A stretch of 46,958 nt of DNA, taken from an uncultured Desulfotomaculum sp. (lineage in GTDB: Bacteria > Bacillota > Desulfotomaculia > Desulfotomaculales > Desulfotomaculaceae). The stretch covers positions 1 to 46,958 of the forward strand of contig CAMKDG010000012.1 in NCBI GenBank assembly GCA_946411205.1, read 5' to 3'. The notes beneath the pieces are model-generated. The model was not told the DNA's origin. It did no database searches and worked only from the letters and a program-made list of their open reading frames with translations. Of the stretch, positions 19,943-42,326 are shown piece by piece. The stretch's first letter is position 1, and every line of letters starts with the position of its first letter. Made by a program: the position numbers and the translations under genes.

Positions 19943-21499
19943 ATGAGTACAACACCGCAGGAACCGTCAGAATCATTCTGGCTACCTTTATTTGTCATTG
20001 TTACCGGTGCCTTTGCAGCCATTTTAAGCAGCAGTTCTGTTAACGTAGCCATTCCCAAATTAATGGCTATTTTTGGGGTTTCGTCCAATGATGTTCAGTG
20101 GGTTTTAACAGGCTACATGTTATCCTCCGCCATTGTGATCCCCCTCTCCGGGTATTTAGGAGACAGATTTGGCAATAAAAAAGTTTTCATCTACTCCTTG
20201 GGGCTTTTTACCTTGGGTTCGGTCTTTTGTTCCTTTGCCTGGAGCAATCAGTCATTGATTGTCTTTCGGGTATTGCAAGGACTCGGGGGCGGTATTATCA
20301 TGCCGATCAGCATGGCCATTATTTACCGCATTGTCCCCCTTAACCAAATTGGCCTGGCCCTGGGTGTCTGGGGCATGGCTGCCATTATGGGACCGGCCGT
20401 TGGTCCAACTCTGGGCGGCTATATTCTTGAACATTTTAATTGGCGATTGCTTTTTTTAATTAATATTCCGGTTGGGCTGCTAGGTATCTTCCTATCTATC
20501 TTTTTATTAAAAGAAACCCCTTTAAAGGAGAAAACCAAATTTGATGGCTGGGGTTTCCTTTTATCCACTGCAGGGTGTTTTTCTTTATTACTAGCCCTAA
20601 GCCAGGGTTCTAAAGAAGGCTGGAGTTCTTACTATATTGTCATGCTTTTTCTCATTTCTTTCTTTACTCTACTGCTTTTTGTGTTGCATGAGCTATCCTG
20701 TGAAGAACCCTTATTGGACCTTCGTCTATTAAAAAATTCCACCTTTAGCATCAGTGTTCTGGTGGGTGGCTTAATCAACATTGGTCTGTTTGGCGGGGTG
20801 TTTTTAACACCGTTATTTACTCAAAATCTCATGAACATGTCCGCCTACGATACGGGCTTGCTGCTCTTGCCGGCATCCCTGGTAACTGGCCTAATGATGC
20901 CGATTAGCGGTGTTTTATTTGATAAGTTTGGTGCCAAAGTGATCAGCTTTGTTGGTCTTACCATCCTGGCCGTGGGCACCCTGGAATTGCAACATCTTGC
21001 TGCCGATACTGGAAAGCTGGAATTAATTATTATTCTATCTATTCGTTCCTTTGGTATGGGGCTGGCCATGATGCCCATCTCCACTGCGGGTATGAATGTA
21101 GTCTCTAAACAGTTAGTAGGACAAGCCTCGGCTCTTAGCAATGTAATTCGGCAAATCTTTGCCTCCTTTGGCATAGCCGTGCTGACGACGATTATGCAAA
21201 ATCGCCAAATCTTTCATACTGCCCGGCTATCGGACGGAATTTCTTCCTTTGCCCCTGGGGTAGCTTTGCATCTTAAACAAATACAAGTTGCTCTAATGAA
21301 TAGCGTAGGCAGCGAATCAGCCTCCGGCGTAGCGCTTAGTTACGTTTGGGGTGTATTACAAAAACAAGCACTGGTTTTTGCTATTGACGATACCTTTTTC
21401 ATCTCGGCACTTTTTATCTTTGTAGCAATCCCACTGGTATTTTTTATTAAGGAAAAAGGCCCTCTCGATAAAAGAAAGGCTGCTAACCAGGAAGGTTAG
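19943..21499 (+). CDS. MFS drug exporter, DHA2 (EmrB/QacA) family, 14 membrane segments
   Basis: The 518-residue length and about fourteen hydrophobic helices fit the DHA2 subfamily. Motifs include SGYLGDRFGNKKVFIYSLGL (loop 2-3) and the motif-C-like stretch WGMAAIMGPAVGPTLGGYIL near helix 5. It probably expels lipophilic or cationic drugs by proton antiport. GAGGGAG precedes the ATG. It is on the plus strand and convergent with a MarR gene, a common regulator type for such pumps. The terminator at 21474-21508 overlaps its 3' end. It marks the left end of the block separating rpsR from the YybS-like gene. Confidence 0.88.
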   Translation: MSTTPQEPSESFWLPLFVIVTGAFAAILSSSSVNVAIPKLMAIFGVSSNDVQWVLTGYMLSSAIVIPLSGYLGDRFGNKKVFIYSLGLFTLGSVFCSFAWSNQSLIVFRVLQGLGGGIIMPISMAIIYRIVPLNQIGLALGVWGMAAIMGPAVGPTLGGYILEHFNWRLLFLINIPVGLLGIFLSIFLLKETPLKEKTKFDGWGFLLSTAGCFSLLLALSQGSKEGWSSYYIVMLFLISFFTLLLFVLHELSCEEPLLDLRLLKNSTFSISVLVGGLINIGLFGGVFLTPLFTQNLMNMSAYDTGLLLLPASLVTGLMMPISGVLFDKFGAKVISFVGLTILAVGTLELQHLAADTGKLELIIILSIRSFGMGLAMMPISTAGMNVVSKQLVGQASALSNVIRQIFASFGIAVLTTIMQNRQIFHTARLSDGISSFAPGVALHLKQIQVALMNSVGSESASGVALSYVWGVLQKQALVFAIDDTFFISALFIFVAIPLVFFIKEKGPLDKRKAANQEG

Positions 21500-21508
21500 C
21501 AGCCTTTC
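21474..21508. terminator. bidirectional terminator between exporter and MarR gene
   Basis: A 15-base perfect stem GAAAGGCTGCTAACC (21474-21488) with 21494-21508 around a 5-base loop. It encodes the last codons of the exporter. Confidence 0.85.
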
Positions 21509-21509
21509 T

Positions 21510-21920
21510 TTATAAGGCAGATTCCATTTTATTGAGCAAGGTTATTAATAGTTCGGTTTCTTCTTTTGACAATTTATCCTTGGTTTTTTCAGCAATGTAT
21601 TGTTCAAAATTAGGAAATTTCCCTTGTAACTCCCTAGCTTTCTCTGTTAGATAAATACGAACTACCCGCCGGTCCTCATGATTCCTTTCCCGGCGGACTA
21701 AGCCATCTCTTTCCATACGATCTACTAAAGAAGTAATGGTACTGGCTTTTAAAAAAAGTTTCTCCCCCAGTTCAGTAATGGTCAATCCATCTTGCTGCCA
21801 TAACTTGAGCAGCGCCGAAAGGGGTGCCGAGTCCAGGCCCATTTCTTCAGCTAAGGCGGTAAAATGTATATGTACTTTTTTGAAAGCTAGATATAAGCTA
21901 GTAATCAGAACATTGTCCAT
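21510..21920 (-). CDS. MarR-family transcriptional regulator
   Basis: The 136-residue winged-HTH protein has a typical MarR core: GLTITELGEKLFLKASTITS, then LVDRMERDGLVRRERNHEDR, with the wing DRRVVRIYLTEKA and a C-terminal dimerisation helix. It is convergent with the DHA2 exporter, so it may control that gene in trans as well as itself. A 15-base palindrome lies between its -35 and -10 elements. The ligand is unknown. Confidence 0.88.
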   Translation of the reverse strand: MDNVLITSLYLAFKKVHIHFTALAEEMGLDSAPLSALLKLWQQDGLTITELGEKLFLKASTITSLVDRMERDGLVRRERNHEDRRVVRIYLTEKARELQGKFPNFEQYIAEKTKDKLSKEETELLITLLNKMESAL

Positions 21921-25506: not shown

Positions 25507-25548
25507 CACGCATCGTTTTGTCGAATTATTCCGACAAAACGATGCGTG
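25507..25548. terminator. 17-base perfect hairpin between hypB and gyrB
   Basis: CACGCATCGTTTTGTCG (25507-25523) pairs with 25532-25548 around an 8-base loop. On the minus strand it follows hypB and probably ends the hyp operon, but only GTTC follows, so a canonical T-tract is missing. Confidence 0.6.
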
Positions 25549-33373: not shown

Positions 33374-33565
33374 CTACGCTTCCAATTCTTCCAATTCTTC
33401 CAATTCTTCCAATGAAATGCCATGATAATCACAAATAGTTTTTAATTTTGCAAGAAAAGCCCTTTTTTCTGAGACATCTTTTTTCTCTGCCATAACTTCT
33501 TTCATCCAGTTAACGATATATTTCCTCTGTGTTTCTTTAGAAGCTTCTTTTTGAACGGATTCCAT
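33374..33565 (-). CDS. small hypothetical protein with LEE-repeat tail
   Basis: About 63 residues, highly charged, probably helical, with no transmembrane segment or recognised domain. It ends with LEELEELEELEA encoded by a 9-base tandem repeat. The start at 33565 is supported by GGTGG 7 bases upstream; 33571 and 33598 are alternatives. It directly follows another unknown gene and precedes hypF in the hydrogenase cluster, and lies downstream of a sigma-54 promoter, so an accessory role in hydrogenase expression or assembly is possible but unproven. Confidence 0.5.
   Translation of the reverse strand: MESVQKEASKETQRKYIVNWMKEVMAEKKDVSEKRAFLAKLKTICDYHGISLEELEELEELEA
33380..33413. repeat. 9-base tandem repeat (3.8 copies of TTCCAATTC)
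   Basis: Three perfect units at 33380-33388, 33389-33397 and 33398-33406 plus a partial fourth. In the coding strand it gives Glu-Leu-Glu triplets at the end of the small hypothetical protein. Unit multiples of three keep the frame, so length could vary between strains. Confidence 0.9.
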
Positions 33566-33581
33566 GTACATTCCACCCTTT

Positions 33582-34013
33582 CTAGGATTCACTTTCATTT
33601 ATTTCCGGAATGGCTAATCTCTTCCAAAAATTACTTATTTGCTGCTGTTGCTTCCTTGGAATATCTGCAGTAAAGTTTAGCGGTAATGTTACCGAATAAT
33701 CCAAGTCGTTATTAAGTTTTAAGTTAGGGGTTTCGAAATTAATTACTTCAATTAGTTTACCAAACAATTCTCTTACCTTGTTATCACCAAGGAGTTCAAT
33801 GCTTACCTTTATTCTTTCCATTTCTAGAAAAGCAGGCTCTTTTACCGGGAGTTGTTCGATCCATGCTCTAAATTCTCTAGTATATTCATGACGAAATCTT
33901 ATATTTTTGTATAAAATCTGATCAAAATAGGGTCGGTTGCTACAGAAGACTTCCTTAATCGTTTTATCGGGATATCTCCCCATGCCCATAGCCCTTGAAA
34001 AATACTCATCCAT
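33582..34013 (-). CDS. hypothetical protein of the hydrogenase cluster
   Basis: 143 residues, soluble, charged, with a Pro/Asn-rich middle and no domain that I recognise. A near-perfect ribosome site (AAGGAGGTGAACCT) precedes the ATG, and coding character is clear, so it is a real gene. It is the first gene after the sigma-54 promoter at 34160-34176, followed by the small LEE-tailed gene and then hypF. Its single cysteine and lack of motifs argue against an iron-sulfur or nickel-chaperone role. Function unknown. Confidence 0.7.
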   Translation of the reverse strand: MDEYFSRAMGMGRYPDKTIKEVFCSNRPYFDQILYKNIRFRHEYTREFRAWIEQLPVKEPAFLEMERIKVSIELLGDNKVRELFGKLIEVINFETPNLKLNNDLDYSVTLPLNFTADIPRKQQQQISNFWKRLAIPEINESES

Positions 34014-34159
34014 AGGTTCACCTCCTTTAAAAATTTAGTTAGCGAATTATATAATTTTTGATTTATTATTTCTACATATTTCAACATAATATAGCAATTT
34101 TTTTATAAATTGTGTTTCTAAATTGTTTATCATTCTCATACTTATTATATTTTTAGTAT

Positions 34160-34176
34160 TGCAAGTTTCATGCCCC
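34160..34176 (-). promoter_or_regulatory. sigma-54 (-24/-12) promoter before the unknown genes and hypF
   Basis: The minus strand reads GGGGCATGAAACTTGCA: GG and GC are 10 bases apart, with -24 GGCATG and -12 TTGCA matching the consensus TGGCACG-N4-TTGCA closely. Transcription would start near 34150 and enter the 143-residue gene, its small neighbour and possibly hypFCDE. The sigma-54 activator gene lies in that same block. Confidence 0.7.
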
Positions 34177-34205
34177 GCCTATTTCAAAGAATACCTGCCG
34201 ACCAG

Positions 34206-34222
34206 TTGGCATTGATTTTGCT
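34206..34222 (+). promoter_or_regulatory. divergent sigma-54 promoter reading into a gene-free stretch
   Basis: The plus strand reads TTGGCATTGATTTTGCT with exact GG-N10-GC spacing, matching -24 TTGGCA and -12 TTGCT. It faces away from the minus-strand sigma-54 promoter about 30 bases to the left. No ORF lies downstream before the convergent lctP gene, so the product would be a short non-coding RNA. Confidence 0.6.
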
Positions 34223-34232
34223 TATATTATTA

Positions 34233-34385
34233 GATATAATGAAAATGCTTGAACGCTCTCCCCCAAAAGAGTGTTCAAAAGTAGTCCCGGTCTGGTTTCT
34301 CTCATCCTAACACCATAAGGGAAACCAGACTACCTGTTAGGGTAAATAGACCCCCGGAAAATTTCCGGGGGGTTAGGTATTTTAC
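34233..34385 (+). ncRNA. candidate structured small RNA (hairpin, H-type pseudoknot, terminator-like stem)
   Basis: About 150 bases from the predicted sigma-54 start. Hairpin 1: 34251-34259 with 34268-34276, loop CCCCCAAA. Hairpin 2: 10 perfect pairs, 34290-34299 with 34321-34330, whose 21-base loop contains CCTAACA (34306-34312), complementary to TGTTAGG (34335-34341) just after the stem, giving an H-type pseudoknot. Last is a 10-base GC-rich stem, 34351-34360 with 34362-34371, followed by TATTTT. The segment around 34235-34312 is similar to 36698-36780 in the maturation-protease gene, with 16 identical bases. Strand is inferred from the promoter; a decayed gene copy is the main alternative. 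The remainder of 34014-34400 is the two sigma-54 promoters and AT-rich DNA. Confidence 0.45.
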
Positions 34386-34400
34386 AGGGATTCTATACTA

Positions 34401-36368
34401 TTACATAACCTGGCCTGAACCAGAACTTTCGGATTTTTTTAGATCTATCGTAGATGTATCTCCATCACCGGCGGGACAGAAACATTCTTCTTCTGTCCAC
34501 TGTTTAACCATTTTGATTACACTAATTAAGGTAATCAGCCCAACAATTATGGGTATACCCCAAAGTATAACCGGTGAGGTAGCTCTCTCAACTTGATGAA
34601 TTGTTTCTGATATTACGGGTACCATCCAGGTAAAGACATGAGCTTGTAACATGGAAATTGTCCCAATAAGTACTGTGAATATTACTGACACCCAAACAAC
34701 CCTGCGAATGATCTCCCCTTCAGCGCCAGGCAGATTTACTGATGCGGTAACAATCGCTAAGTCTTGAGGTGCACAGGATTTACCCATAACACCACCGGAA
34801 CTAAGGGTACTGGCGGCCAGCAATCCACTGTGGCCTGATTGTTCTGCGGCAACACAAACCATTTGACCAAATAAAGCATTGGAAGCCGCGTCCGTACCCG
34901 TTAAGAAAACACCCAACAGACCTAGTATAGCGACACTCATAGGAAGCCAAAACCCAGTTTGAGCAAAGGCCATTCCCATTGTATAGGTCATTGCGGAATA
35001 GTTCATTAACTGGGCAATGCCAAGAATGCACAAAATTGTTGCATAGGCCATTGTTAATTGCTTGAGGGTTGATTTAAAACACGTAGTTGCCTTTGAAACA
35101 CCAATTCCTGTCACAAATATTGTAATAATTCCCACAAAGAAAACCAAGGTTCCTCCAATGGTTAGCAACGGCGACGTCCAAATAGCAGTGTATTCTTCTA
35201 CTTTCAATGTCGCTGGCGGTACCTTTGAAATCATTAGGTGTAAATTGGGCCAGTGAATGGTTACGGTACTGAGTTTAGCCCCAATGGTTTTAATTGTAGG
35301 GGAAGCATTCACTGCAGAGATAAAGGCGATCATCAAAAAGTAAGGAGACCAAGCCTTTAGTATTCTTAACGGGGGAATTCTTTCTCCCTCATATTTAGGA
35401 GGGGTATTGGGATCGTCCGTTGGTAATAGCCAAATCTTTTTAGGGTGCCAAAACTTAGTTATTAGTATGGTGACACCTATTGCAGCCAGCGCACCGGAGA
35501 TATCAACAACATACGGGCCAACAGTGTTTGATACGATAAACGCTGTCAATCCGTATGCACAGCCTGCGGCAAGCGGTATCCACCATATCTTTTTATATCC
35601 TTTCCAGCCGGCAAAGAAACAAATTAATACTGAGGCAAAAATGGCTGTTGTTATGGGTGTCTGTCTCCCAATCATGGTAGATAGGTGATTTATGTCAATG
35701 CCGGTAACTGCCTGTAGCACAACCAAGGGGGTTCCTTGGGTTCCGAAAGCACAGGGAGTGGTATCTGATAATAAGCATAACACTGCCGCTGTCATCGGCG
35801 GGAAGCCAATACCAACCATCATGGCTGAGGTTACGGCAATGGGTGCACCAAAGGCTGCGATACCTTCAAGCAGAGTACCAAAGCCAAATATAAGCAACAA
35901 TACTTGTATCCGGCGGTCGTTGCTCACATACCCCAAGGACTTCTTAATAACCTCAAATTCTCCACTTTCTACAAGAAGATTATAGACCCAAACAGCACAG
36001 GTTAACGTCCATAAGATGGGACAAGCTGCCAACATAAAACCAAACAAGGTTGCATTGGATGCCAACCCTATGGGCATATCCCAAACGGCTACTGATAAAA
36101 TTAGCGCAACAACTAACCCCATACTGCAGGAAAAAACAGATGATCTTCTAAAACCAGTTAGGCAGGTAAACATTACAATTAAGGGAAGTGCTGCAACTAA
36201 AGCAGATACGTTAGAACTATTTAGAACGGGAGAGTACTGCTGTGTCCAATGGATGGTTTCTCCCAAGATACCTCCAGAAAAAAAGGCAGTAATTAAAAAA
36301 AACAAAGCAAATAATGCAACCGAGAGTAAGAATGTCTTTTTCTGAGCAGGTCCATGTCCTAATTCCAT
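34401..36368 (-). CDS. L-lactate permease (LctP) family carrier
   Basis: The 655-residue membrane protein has about fourteen helices with family features GFGTLLEGIAAFGAPIAVTS and DTTPCAFGTQGTPLVVLQ in the first half and GTDAASNALFGQMVCVAAEQ plus SSGGVMGKSCAPQDLAIVTA in the second. Typical LctP proteins are about 530-560 residues and take up lactate or glycolate with protons; the extra length comes from an internal loop and a polar C-terminal tail. It is the last gene of the flavoprotein/hydrogenase operon, 34 bases after the protease gene, so it probably imports the organic acid handled by that enzyme system. The actual substrate is unknown. Confidence 0.88.
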   Translation of the reverse strand: MELGHGPAQKKTFLLSVALFALFFLITAFFSGGILGETIHWTQQYSPVLNSSNVSALVAALPLIVMFTCLTGFRRSSVFSCSMGLVVALILSVAVWDMPIGLASNATLFGFMLAACPILWTLTCAVWVYNLLVESGEFEVIKKSLGYVSNDRRIQVLLLIFGFGTLLEGIAAFGAPIAVTSAMMVGIGFPPMTAAVLCLLSDTTPCAFGTQGTPLVVLQAVTGIDINHLSTMIGRQTPITTAIFASVLICFFAGWKGYKKIWWIPLAAGCAYGLTAFIVSNTVGPYVVDISGALAAIGVTILITKFWHPKKIWLLPTDDPNTPPKYEGERIPPLRILKAWSPYFLMIAFISAVNASPTIKTIGAKLSTVTIHWPNLHLMISKVPPATLKVEEYTAIWTSPLLTIGGTLVFFVGIITIFVTGIGVSKATTCFKSTLKQLTMAYATILCILGIAQLMNYSAMTYTMGMAFAQTGFWLPMSVAILGLLGVFLTGTDAASNALFGQMVCVAAEQSGHSGLLAASTLSSGGVMGKSCAPQDLAIVTASVNLPGAEGEIIRRVVWVSVIFTVLIGTISMLQAHVFTWMVPVISETIHQVERATSPVILWGIPIIVGLITLISVIKMVKQWTEEECFCPAGDGDTSTIDLKKSESSGSGQVM

Positions 36369-36402: not shown

Positions 36403-36897
36403 TTAAGGTGCCTTTCTGTTAGCTACCACAGCCAGTATTTGAAAGATTAATCGGATCGTTGGTTCAATGGCAGACTCAACAGCTGGCGACAACCCCGGCT
36501 CGATTTCCTCGGGTATCGATTGTACCTGACAGCCCAAAATACGTACATCAATGCCTTTTCTGAGCTTTAACTCATTTAGAATATTAAGGTCAAGAAATTG
36601 ATGAATGGAAAAATCCCCTCTTTTGTTTTGAGGAATTTTATCGAATTCAATTTCCCTAACTGTACCGGGAACTAATCCCCAGTCCATGGCATCCACTAAT
36701 ATAATCTTTTCTAGCTTGCTCTCCCCCAAAAGAGCGTCCAGAAGTAGTTCCCCAGCACCAGTTCCTGCATCAATCACCTCAACACCCTCAGGAAGCTGGG
36801 CTTTTTTTTGCAAATGTTCTATTACTCCGGGTCCAAAGCCATCATCACCAAATAAAATATTACCGCATCCAATTATACTTACTTGACCCGGATTCAT
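36403..36897 (-). CDS. hydrogenase maturation protease (HyaD/HycI family)
   Basis: The 164-residue endopeptidase trims the C-terminal extension of the nickel-loaded large subunit. The N-terminal nickel-sensing motif IIGCGNILFGDDGFGPGVIE and the central IDAGTGAGELLLDALLGESK, then DAMDWG, are as in the family. It lies 22 bases downstream of the large-subunit gene, whose C-terminus still carries a removable 25-residue tail. A stretch of this gene (36698-36780) has a partial copy in the intergenic RNA candidate at 34235-34312. Confidence 0.92.
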   Translation of the reverse strand: MNPGQVSIIGCGNILFGDDGFGPGVIEHLQKKAQLPEGVEVIDAGTGAGELLLDALLGESKLEKIILVDAMDWGLVPGTVREIEFDKIPQNKRGDFSIHQFLDLNILNELKLRKGIDVRILGCQVQSIPEEIEPGLSPAVESAIEPTIRLIFQILAVVANRKAP

Positions 36898-36919: not shown

Positions 36920-38362
36920 TTAATTTCCCAAGGTCTGTACTACTTGACCTTTACTATCTACAACTGCAACCCTAACAGCCACCCTGCCGTCAATTTTATG
37001 GGTCGCACAACTGTAGCAAGGATCATAGGCCCGGATAGCCATTTCAATTTTATTTAGGCCATCTTCATCGCAAACGCCGTCCTTAATCACTTCACGGGCG
37101 GTACGGAAGGCGGAAATATTAATCGCAGCATTGTTATGGGTTGTACCGACAATAAGATTTACTCGGGTAAGTAGACCGTTGTCATCCGTTTGATAATCAT
37201 GTATTAATGTTCCTCTGGGTGCTTCAACAACCCCAACTCCACGACCAGCACATGGTTTTACGCTTTCTCTGACATGGGTCCCGGTAATTGCATCATCCTC
37301 AAGTAACTCTACAGCTCTTTCTGCCGCATAGACTGCCTCAATTAGACGCGCCCAATGGTAGAGGAAATTATGTTGAGCAACTCCACCTACTTCTTTACGG
37401 AAATCAATGAGTTCTTTTTGGGCTAAAGGTGTCGGTATGCTATCACATACATTCAACCTTGCCAGTGAGTTTGTACGATAAACCCCAACCGGCTGATCCG
37501 GATCCATAGAAAGTTTCCCTACAGATTTATCATAGGGGAATTTCATGTAGGTCCAATCCTCGGTATGTTCGCTAATATAATCCAGGTAATCAGCTGGTTC
37601 GAATTCTTCACATTCACCATTTAATTTGAGTAACCTGAGCCTACCATCATAAAAATTCAATTCTCCGTCTTTTGAAACCATCCCCAAAAAGCCGGTCTTT
37701 AAGGTAGGAGAATTTTTTATTTGTGGTAATAGATTCATAAATACTTTATCTTTGGCAAAGTCCAAGGAAAATTGGACAAATTCCAGGCAATCGCCAGCCA
37801 TTGAGCGAAGTTCTTTCCGTTGTTCTTCACTAATTGACTTGCTAAAACCGCCAGGAACTGCAACATCTGGATGAATAGCTTTACCTGCTATTATTTCTGT
37901 CATTTTCTGGGCTACGTGACGAATACGTGCAATTTTTTGAACCAATATGGGATGTTTATCCGCGAGACCCATAATATTTCTCACCAAATAATCCGTCCCT
38001 GGATCACACAAAAAATCTGCCCCTGCTAAAAAGAAGAAATGTAACAAATGGCTATGGACAAAGTGCGCGCTATAAGCAAGTTCTCTTATTTTTTTGGCTG
38101 TCTCTGGAATTTGCACCCCAAATACTGCGTCCGCAGCTTTAGCCGCCGCCAAATGATGTGCCCATGGACATACGCCACAAATTCTAGTAACGATTCTTGG
38201 CATTTCTTCAACTGGGCGACCTAGGCAAAATTTTTCAAAGCCCCTTATTTCAACCACCTGAACTTTAGTATCAGAGACTCTTCCTGCATCATCCAATTGA
38301 ACAGTTACTCTCGCATGCCCCTCCACTCTTGAGACTGGTTGTATTGTAATTGTTTTTCCCAC
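36920..38362 (-). CDS. [NiFe]-hydrogenase large subunit, cytoplasmic Mvh-type
   Basis: The 480-residue catalytic subunit has the N-terminal nickel ligands RICGVC (Cys62, Cys65) and C-terminal DPCYSCATH (Cys449, Cys452), followed by 25 residues that the adjacent protease should remove. It begins TITIQPVSRVEGHARV, as in group 3 F420-non-reducing (MvhA-like) hydrogenases. It catalyses reversible H2 cleavage. No Tat signal exists on its partner, so the enzyme is cytosolic. It starts 11 bases after the small-subunit gene. No mvhD or hdr gene follows, unlike the usual Mvh-Hdr arrangement. Confidence 0.93.
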   Translation of the reverse strand: MGKTITIQPVSRVEGHARVTVQLDDAGRVSDTKVQVVEIRGFEKFCLGRPVEEMPRIVTRICGVCPWAHHLAAAKAADAVFGVQIPETAKKIRELAYSAHFVHSHLLHFFFLAGADFLCDPGTDYLVRNIMGLADKHPILVQKIARIRHVAQKMTEIIAGKAIHPDVAVPGGFSKSISEEQRKELRSMAGDCLEFVQFSLDFAKDKVFMNLLPQIKNSPTLKTGFLGMVSKDGELNFYDGRLRLLKLNGECEEFEPADYLDYISEHTEDWTYMKFPYDKSVGKLSMDPDQPVGVYRTNSLARLNVCDSIPTPLAQKELIDFRKEVGGVAQHNFLYHWARLIEAVYAAERAVELLEDDAITGTHVRESVKPCAGRGVGVVEAPRGTLIHDYQTDDNGLLTRVNLIVGTTHNNAAINISAFRTAREVIKDGVCDEDGLNKIEMAIRAYDPCYSCATHKIDGRVAVRVAVVDSKGQVVQTLGN

Positions 38363-39301: not shown

Positions 39302-39330
39302 AGTACCCCTCCGTTTAACGGAGGGGTACT
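39302..39330 (-). promoter_or_regulatory. hairpin sequestering the ribosome site of the hydrogenase small subunit
   Basis: AGTACCCCTCCGTT and its complement form a 14-base stem with a single unpaired base in the loop (39302-39315 with 39317-39330). On the minus strand the 3' arm contains GGAGGGG, the ribosome site of the ATG at 39300. No T-tract follows, so it is not a terminator; translational control or mRNA processing is more likely. Confidence 0.65.
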
Positions 39331-42054: not shown

Positions 42055-42090
42055 AATAAAAAAAGAATGGGGAAATCCCCATTCTTTTTT
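42055..42090 (-). terminator. terminator of the rpsF-ssb-rpsR operon
   Basis: AAAGAATGGGG (42062-42072) pairs perfectly with 42077-42087 around AAAT, followed by TTTTTATTTC on the minus strand. It begins 5 bases after the rpsR stop. Confidence 0.9.
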
Positions 42091-42092
42091 TA

Positions 42093-42326
42093 TTAAGATT
42101 CAGTTGAAAAAGGCAGTAAAGCAATGTTACGAGCTCTCTTGATAGCAACTGTTAGTATGCGTTGATGGTGTGCACAGTTGCCGGAAATGCGGCGGGGTAA
42201 AATTTTACCGCGCTCGGTAACGTATTTTTTAAGCTTAGGAATTTCTTTATAATCAATAGCAGTAGCTTTGTCTACACAGAAGCTACAAACGCGTCTTTTG
42301 CCTCTGCGTCCACGCTCACGTTTCAA
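42093..42326 (-). CDS. rpsR: 30S ribosomal protein S18
   Basis: The 77-residue protein with typical bS18 sequence: [47 protein letters not shown] and [10 protein letters not shown]. The CSFC and NCAHH cysteines mark the zinc-binding form. It binds the platform of the 30S subunit with S6. TTG start with GGAGGG upstream. Normally followed by the YybS-like gene, but here a terminator and about 22 kb of other genes intervene. Confidence 0.97.

Follow-up and report, generated by a model that had tools for sequence, protein, structure and literature searches.

In cis-antisense and kissing-loop systems of the plasmid RNAI/RNAII type, the partners have complementary hairpin loops and long complementarity. 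The origins of small RNAs are mostly too old to read. Trans-encoded small RNAs usually pair partially with their mRNAs, near the ribosome-binding site, as outlined in the relevant section of PMC3510493, where sRNA162 of Methanosarcina mazei is presented as one RNA acting antisense on nearby genes, both in cis and in trans. The sibling small RNAs OmrA/OmrB and PrrF are said, in the part of PMC4211561 that treats them, to have arisen by duplication of a small RNA gene. The locus described here contains a real repeat and a conserved structured element, the latter plausibly an antisense RNA, and we advance the hypothesis that it has an antisense function.

The window, i.e. the whole stretch of 46,958 nucleotides that was analysed, is contig 12 of the 3.6-Mb genome of an uncultured Desulfotomaculum sp. 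(Table 1). On its minus strand, the hydrogenase side carries, in this order, genes for a flavoprotein, a ferredoxin, the small and large subunits of a [NiFe] hydrogenase, the maturation protease and lctP; after lctP come the element, two genes for small proteins, hypF, hypC and hypD (the last two named from their sequences, without a database search). The nearest NCBIfam models of the hydrogenase subunits are VhuG and VhuA, both under the cut-off. In the large subunit (36920-38362, minus strand) the C-terminal part matches the VhuU model on the same chain as the VhuA-like part; VhuU is presumably a separate small selenoprotein subunit, judging by the model name. The two small genes (33374-34013, minus strand) overlap, encode 74 and 143 residues and have no Pfam or NCBIfam match. 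The 143-residue protein occurs in 3 of the 113 genomes of the class that were searched. The third of these (G075) has a homologue with 48% identity, followed by a 70-residue partner and adjoined by a CRP-like regulator and a sigma-54 activator-like gene, both named from sequence. The two small genes are a conserved two-gene unit. The strongest self-matches of the window are near-perfect inverted repeats of 29 to 42 bases, at 42055-42094, 25507-25548, 21471-21511 and 39302-39330, which are probably terminators.

Table 1. Features of the lctP-protease locus (positions in the window)
Feature	Position	Strand	Evidence or remarks
Putative sigma-70-like promoter, TTGATT-17 nt-TATAAT	34212..34240	+	10/12 consensus matches; 1/29 positions differs in second species (spacer, 34224)
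Candidate small RNA; 5' end predicted at about 34246-34247, 3' end at about 34372-34385	34246..34373	+	fold z, conservation
Hairpin 1: predicted 11-pair stem 34249-34259/34268-34278, 8-nt C-rich loop CCCCCAAA	34247..34281	+	z -6.66 for 34247-34282; 0/35 positions differ
Antisense-strand copy of protease gene, 34 nt	34255..34288	+	30/34 identical to 36718-36751
Hairpin 2: 14-pair stem, 15-nt loop	34289..34331	+	predicted fold; two stem differences between species
G+C-rich inverted repeat, terminator-like	34351..34371	either	tails T-poor: minus strand TCTATTTACC, plus strand GTTAGGTATTTT
lctP-family lactate permease gene, opposite-strand neighbour of element	34401..36368	-	Pfam PF02652 E 4.8e-117; TIGR00795 over its cut-off
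[NiFe] hydrogenase maturation protease gene (HycI/FrhD-like)	36403..36897	-	Pfam PF01750 E 3.2e-25; TIGR00072 E 4.7e-39, over its cut-off
Matching stretch in protease gene (about codons 49-60), predicted mRNA target	36718..36751	-	34-nt duplex -55.5 kcal/mol; unchanged between species

The same locus is present in a second species of the genus (G005), on a contig of 131,665 bases. These two carriers are also the only genomes, among nine of the genus, with an lctP of this type (at least 98% identical), the best lctP match in each of the seven others being at most 39% identical. Protease matches were found in three of the nine, both matches in G004 being distant (33-34%), and the protease also matched NZ_FRAR01000016.1 of Desulforamulus aeronauticus DSM 10349. 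Between the two carriers the protease proteins are identical across 158 shared residues. The protease of the window has six C-terminal residues more than that of the second species, and its gene carries an indel at the end (36403-36423).

The spacer and the protease gene share an ungapped direct repeat, whose four differences between copies are all transitions. Its Smith-Waterman score is 48, the maximum among 2000 dinucleotide shuffles of both regions being 33, and a BLASTN search of the genome with a 221-nt query gives it E = 3e-5. One might think of a chance resemblance, given that the self-complementarity of the hairpin lowers the information in the match and that the whole window had been scanned for resemblances. 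Yet none of the shuffles reaches the score, and even in the window-against-window search the match is the best direct repeat, with E = 8e-5 (the higher-scoring rows are self-complementary hairpins), which makes chance very improbable. A first-pass annotation of this DNA had pointed to an identical CTCTCCCCCAAAAGAG at 34256-34271 and 36719-36734, which we recover inside the repeat, and had aligned 34235-34312 with 36698-36780. The core of that alignment stands far above shuffles; its wider flanks are not significant. The leftward gapped extension, which carries a 4-base gap, has a score reached by 404 and 379 of 1000 shuffles under two scoring schemes. To the right, 62 to 118 of 1000 shuffles reach the score (two genomes, two schemes), or 2 to 9 of 150 with longer flanks, so that this extension is only suggestive. 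The annotation had further held that a 4-base insertion extends the hairpin from 4 or 5 to 9 pairs. The intergenic hairpin is indeed longer, with 11 pairs against 5 on the plus strand of the protease copy, but the insertion lies in the part of the alignment that is at chance level.

Copying of about 35 bases of the protease gene into the spacer is the most economical account of the repeat. One extra T is present in the intergenic copy of the second species, whose match with the protease gene reaches 32 of 35 bases (score 55). Since the protease gene has this extra T, the common ancestor of both species probably had a longer match. The intergenic core was also compared with the protease gene in the two next-best relatives (2 of 79 other loci tried), where likeness extends across at most 8 bases although the protein segment is conserved; the copy thus probably came from this lineage's own protease gene. 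The pattern differs from that of a dispersed repeat (MITE, REP): at E <= 0.001 the query has two places in its own genome, one of which is the protease gene. The spacer could also be the relic of a decayed second protease gene, and the 34-nt match does keep one minus-strand reading frame (LLLNTLLGES against LLLDALLGES), to which the weak rightward extension may be added. However, significant similarity is confined to 34-35 nt and absent from the remaining 460 bases of the gene, all three minus-strand frames contain stop codons, and the element is conserved rather than decaying. A second protease gene near lctP, which the first-pass annotation had proposed to look for in relatives, was found in neither of the two genomes that bear the locus. 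We thus regard its alternative of a whole decayed gene as unsupported, and a relic of this kind as improbable.

A discrete transcript of the plus strand would need a promoter and a terminator of its own. A promoter-like match lies directly upstream of the element, the predicted 5' end falling 6-7 nt after its -10 box, and a terminator-like hairpin with a T-poor tail is predicted at the other end. The strength of the promoter match is as expected by chance in AT-rich DNA (10 such matches found, 7.4 expected); this and the T-poor tail count against the reading preferred below. The plus-strand fold of 34230-34385 has a z of -6.15, with 0 of 200 shuffles as stable, and the minus strand of the same stretch a z of -3.64. 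All 34 predicted pairs are standard on the plus strand, against 31 on the minus strand, where three plus-strand G.U pairs of this genome become mismatches. Hairpin 1 holds the copy of the protease gene. In hairpin 2, the loop TCCTAACA is complementary to TGTTAGGG downstream (34305-34312 with 34335-34342); a pseudoknot of 8 pairs is possible in both species, but the 3-nt linker over the 14-pair stem looks too short for it. The G+C-rich inverted repeat may end both lctP on the minus strand and the RNA on the plus strand. A small peptide starting from the ATG at 34245 (21 codons, by eye) is disfavoured, as a one-base insertion at 34284 breaks the frame in the second species.

The element is also unusually similar between the two species. 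Within 34212-34372, bounds chosen after the alignment had been seen, there are 5 substitutions in 161 bases and one inserted base, against 65 changes at 328 four-fold sites of lctP (Fisher p 8e-8; the two genomes make one comparison). The adjacent intergenic stretch 34014-34211 has 20 of 197 positions changed, plus indels (p 0.011 against the element), and the absence of change from hairpin 1 gives p 9e-4 against the lctP sites. Both stem differences, at 34289 and 34320, turn a G.U into an A-U pair on the plus strand, which is weak support for the structure because four random substitutions keep all pairs in 22% of simulations. A stable fold and conservation are found together, in a comparison of two genomes where changes are too few to put the structure to much of a test and covariation is almost absent. 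With the promoter match, these values make the RNA gene proposed by the first-pass annotation plausible, its conservation lying well above neutral.

The same hairpins could serve lctP instead of an RNA of their own. They might end transcription of the lctP operon on the minus strand, protect its 3' end or act as a site at the DNA level, the 34 nt then being a neutral duplication of a fragment. This would fit the position of the cluster, which begins with the G+C-rich hairpin about 30 bases past the lctP stop codon, the terminator-like character of this inverted repeat on the minus strand, and the minus-strand fold, which is better than that of shuffles. Still, the fold of the plus strand is the stronger, the three G.U pairs are lost on the minus strand, and a terminator has no need of the 100 further conserved bases. 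We consider a locus without small RNA unlikely.

Searches by DNA similarity covered 113 genomes of the class and 398 sampled from the phylum; in each set the element turned up in the same two genomes, and no homologue was found beyond these two species among the genomes searched. With the 221-nt query at E 0.01, 11 of 100 relatives were matched, and the nine non-carriers among them by pieces of 19-35 nt that do not represent the element. A covariance model of the element gave 7 genomes at E <= 0.1 in 100 relatives; five were non-carriers at 21.5-28.5 bits, none of which we counted as homologous, and the three non-carrier alignments inspected rest chiefly on the terminator-like hairpin. There was no match among 72,556 plasmid or 50,697 phage records. 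At the gathering scores of Rfam the window yields two tRNAs only, leaving the element without a family, and at E values up to 5 its best hit is GP_knot2 (E 0.45), which is at chance level.

A plus-strand RNA from the spacer had been claimed to be antisense to the protease mRNA over tens of bases, and the complementary stretch indeed amounts to 34 nt. Of the four differences between copies, two are retained in the pairing as G.U and two are lost (A.C and C.A). The hairpin-1 stretch forms a predicted duplex of -65.6 kcal/mol with the protease mRNA, the next best of the 11 genes of the cluster giving -35.1. Opening the partners of the 34-nt core costs about 14.8 (RNA) and 16.3 kcal/mol (mRNA), for a net of about -24. 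In the second species, the duplex is predicted at -62.7 kcal/mol and one position fails to pair. All eight bases of the loop find their complement in UUUGGGGG of the mRNA, and the loop octamers tested cost about 2 kcal/mol each side to open, so that in these models a kissing start between loop and mRNA is feasible. Exact copies of the loop complement TTTTGGGGGAGAG are confined to two sites in this genome, one in the element and one in the protease gene. With one mismatch it occurs at 7 sites, which is chance level, since the backward control pattern has 6 matches of any kind.

The reading that we tentatively prefer is that of a stand-alone structured small RNA of the plus strand whose hairpin 1 stems from a duplicated piece of the protease gene and which targets the protease mRNA in trans by antisense pairing. 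A piece of about 34-35 nt would have been copied from the neighbouring protease gene, in antisense orientation, into the spacer after lctP, where it became the 5' hairpin of an RNA encoded by 34246-34373 and limited to this species pair. Its C-rich loop would kiss the mRNA at about codons 49-60, the contact would spread to a duplex of about 34 pairs, with cleavage or destabilisation of the hydrogenase-protease-lctP cluster mRNA as the outcome. The repeat with its conservation and complementarity, the fold predicted for the element and the uniqueness of the site are what the sequences show, whereas we infer the transcription of the element, its strand and its origin by duplication, and likewise the regulation with its sign. 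Under our hypothesis, use of the pairing is favoured by the uniqueness of the target and by the shared stretch, which is unchanged at both places in both species except for the one-base insertion in the intergenic copy. Several observations speak against such a role. Ribosomes would compete for a target placed mid-gene, within coding sequence, and unfolding of the two partners costs about 31 kcal/mol. Moreover, this genome seems to have lost one pairing base (30 of 34, compared with 32 of 35 in the second species), contrary to what one would expect under strong selection for pairing. On the protease side, four-fold sites changed less than in lctP (4 of 68 against 65 of 328, p 0.0045) and not clearly less than in the two hydrogenase genes (46 of 333, p 0.10); conservation there may reflect plain protein constraint, which could suffice because the proteins are identical over their shared residues.

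It is also conceivable that the small RNA is real and the protease fragment merely its raw material. The RNA would then act on other targets, for instance on G-rich ribosome-binding sites reached by the C-rich loop, or by means of hairpin 2, or it would bind a protein. In line with this, conservation spans the whole element, beyond the shared 34 nt, and the loop CUCUCCCCC resembles the C-rich seeds of known Gram-positive small RNAs. The candidate sites are less encouraging: a start-like codon lies at most 16 bases downstream in three of the 7 one-mismatch sites, always TTG and never ATG or GTG. The constancy of the shared stretch at both places also argues for the protease mRNA as partner. We find other targets a doubtful but appreciable possibility.

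The plus strand of the protease gene has a layout of its own between 36700 and 36809: a TATAAT (36700-36705) 8 bases before a GCTTG, a hairpin from 36718, a second hairpin and eight T (36802-36809). This mirrors the -10 box, CCCCCAAA-loop hairpin, second hairpin and T-run of the intergenic element. One might imagine that the protease gene first had a cis-antisense RNA, a duplicate of which arrived at the intergenic site, acquired a proper promoter along with a longer stem, and came to regulate its source gene in trans. If so, we would see a small RNA soon after its birth, its own target having supplied the antisense strand from which it arose; we consider this scenario improbable.

An antisense RNA made within the protease gene itself is considered here only as part of that scenario, because the plus-strand fold is unremarkable: in 1000 synonymous-codon shuffles, 101 were as stable, and so were 18% of 948 antisense windows.

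Our literature search, with most subscription journals outside it, found no hydrogenase-linked small RNA in Desulfotomaculum and no antisense RNA to a hydrogenase maturation protease. Like trans-encoded base-pairing small RNAs of bacteria, the candidate would have a stand-alone intergenic gene, hairpins, an unpaired loop seed and a predicted mRNA target; unlike them, it offers 34 nearly perfect pairs inside coding sequence, which it seems to owe to descent from its target gene. It shares the loop and the long complementarity with the RNAI/RNAII type, but would be made from a copied fragment 2.4 kb from its target, not opposite to it. The pairing of sRNA162, which was tested, concerns 5' untranslated or translation-initiation regions, whereas that of the candidate is predicted, and the pages of PMC3510493 on sRNA162 describe no copied gene fragment. 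With OmrA/OmrB and PrrF, as treated in that part of PMC4211561, the candidate has an origin by duplication in common, but in its case a stretch of a protein-coding gene seems to have been copied. The candidate would be of a kind already known, the bacterial base-pairing small RNA, and it is its origin that is unusual and readable, since source, copy and one sister species are all available here. Should the RNA be transcribed and pair as predicted, it would be a recent and traceable case in which a fragment of a gene gave rise to the RNA that regulates this gene, and it would place [NiFe] hydrogenase maturation under post-transcriptional control in sulfate-reducing Firmicutes.
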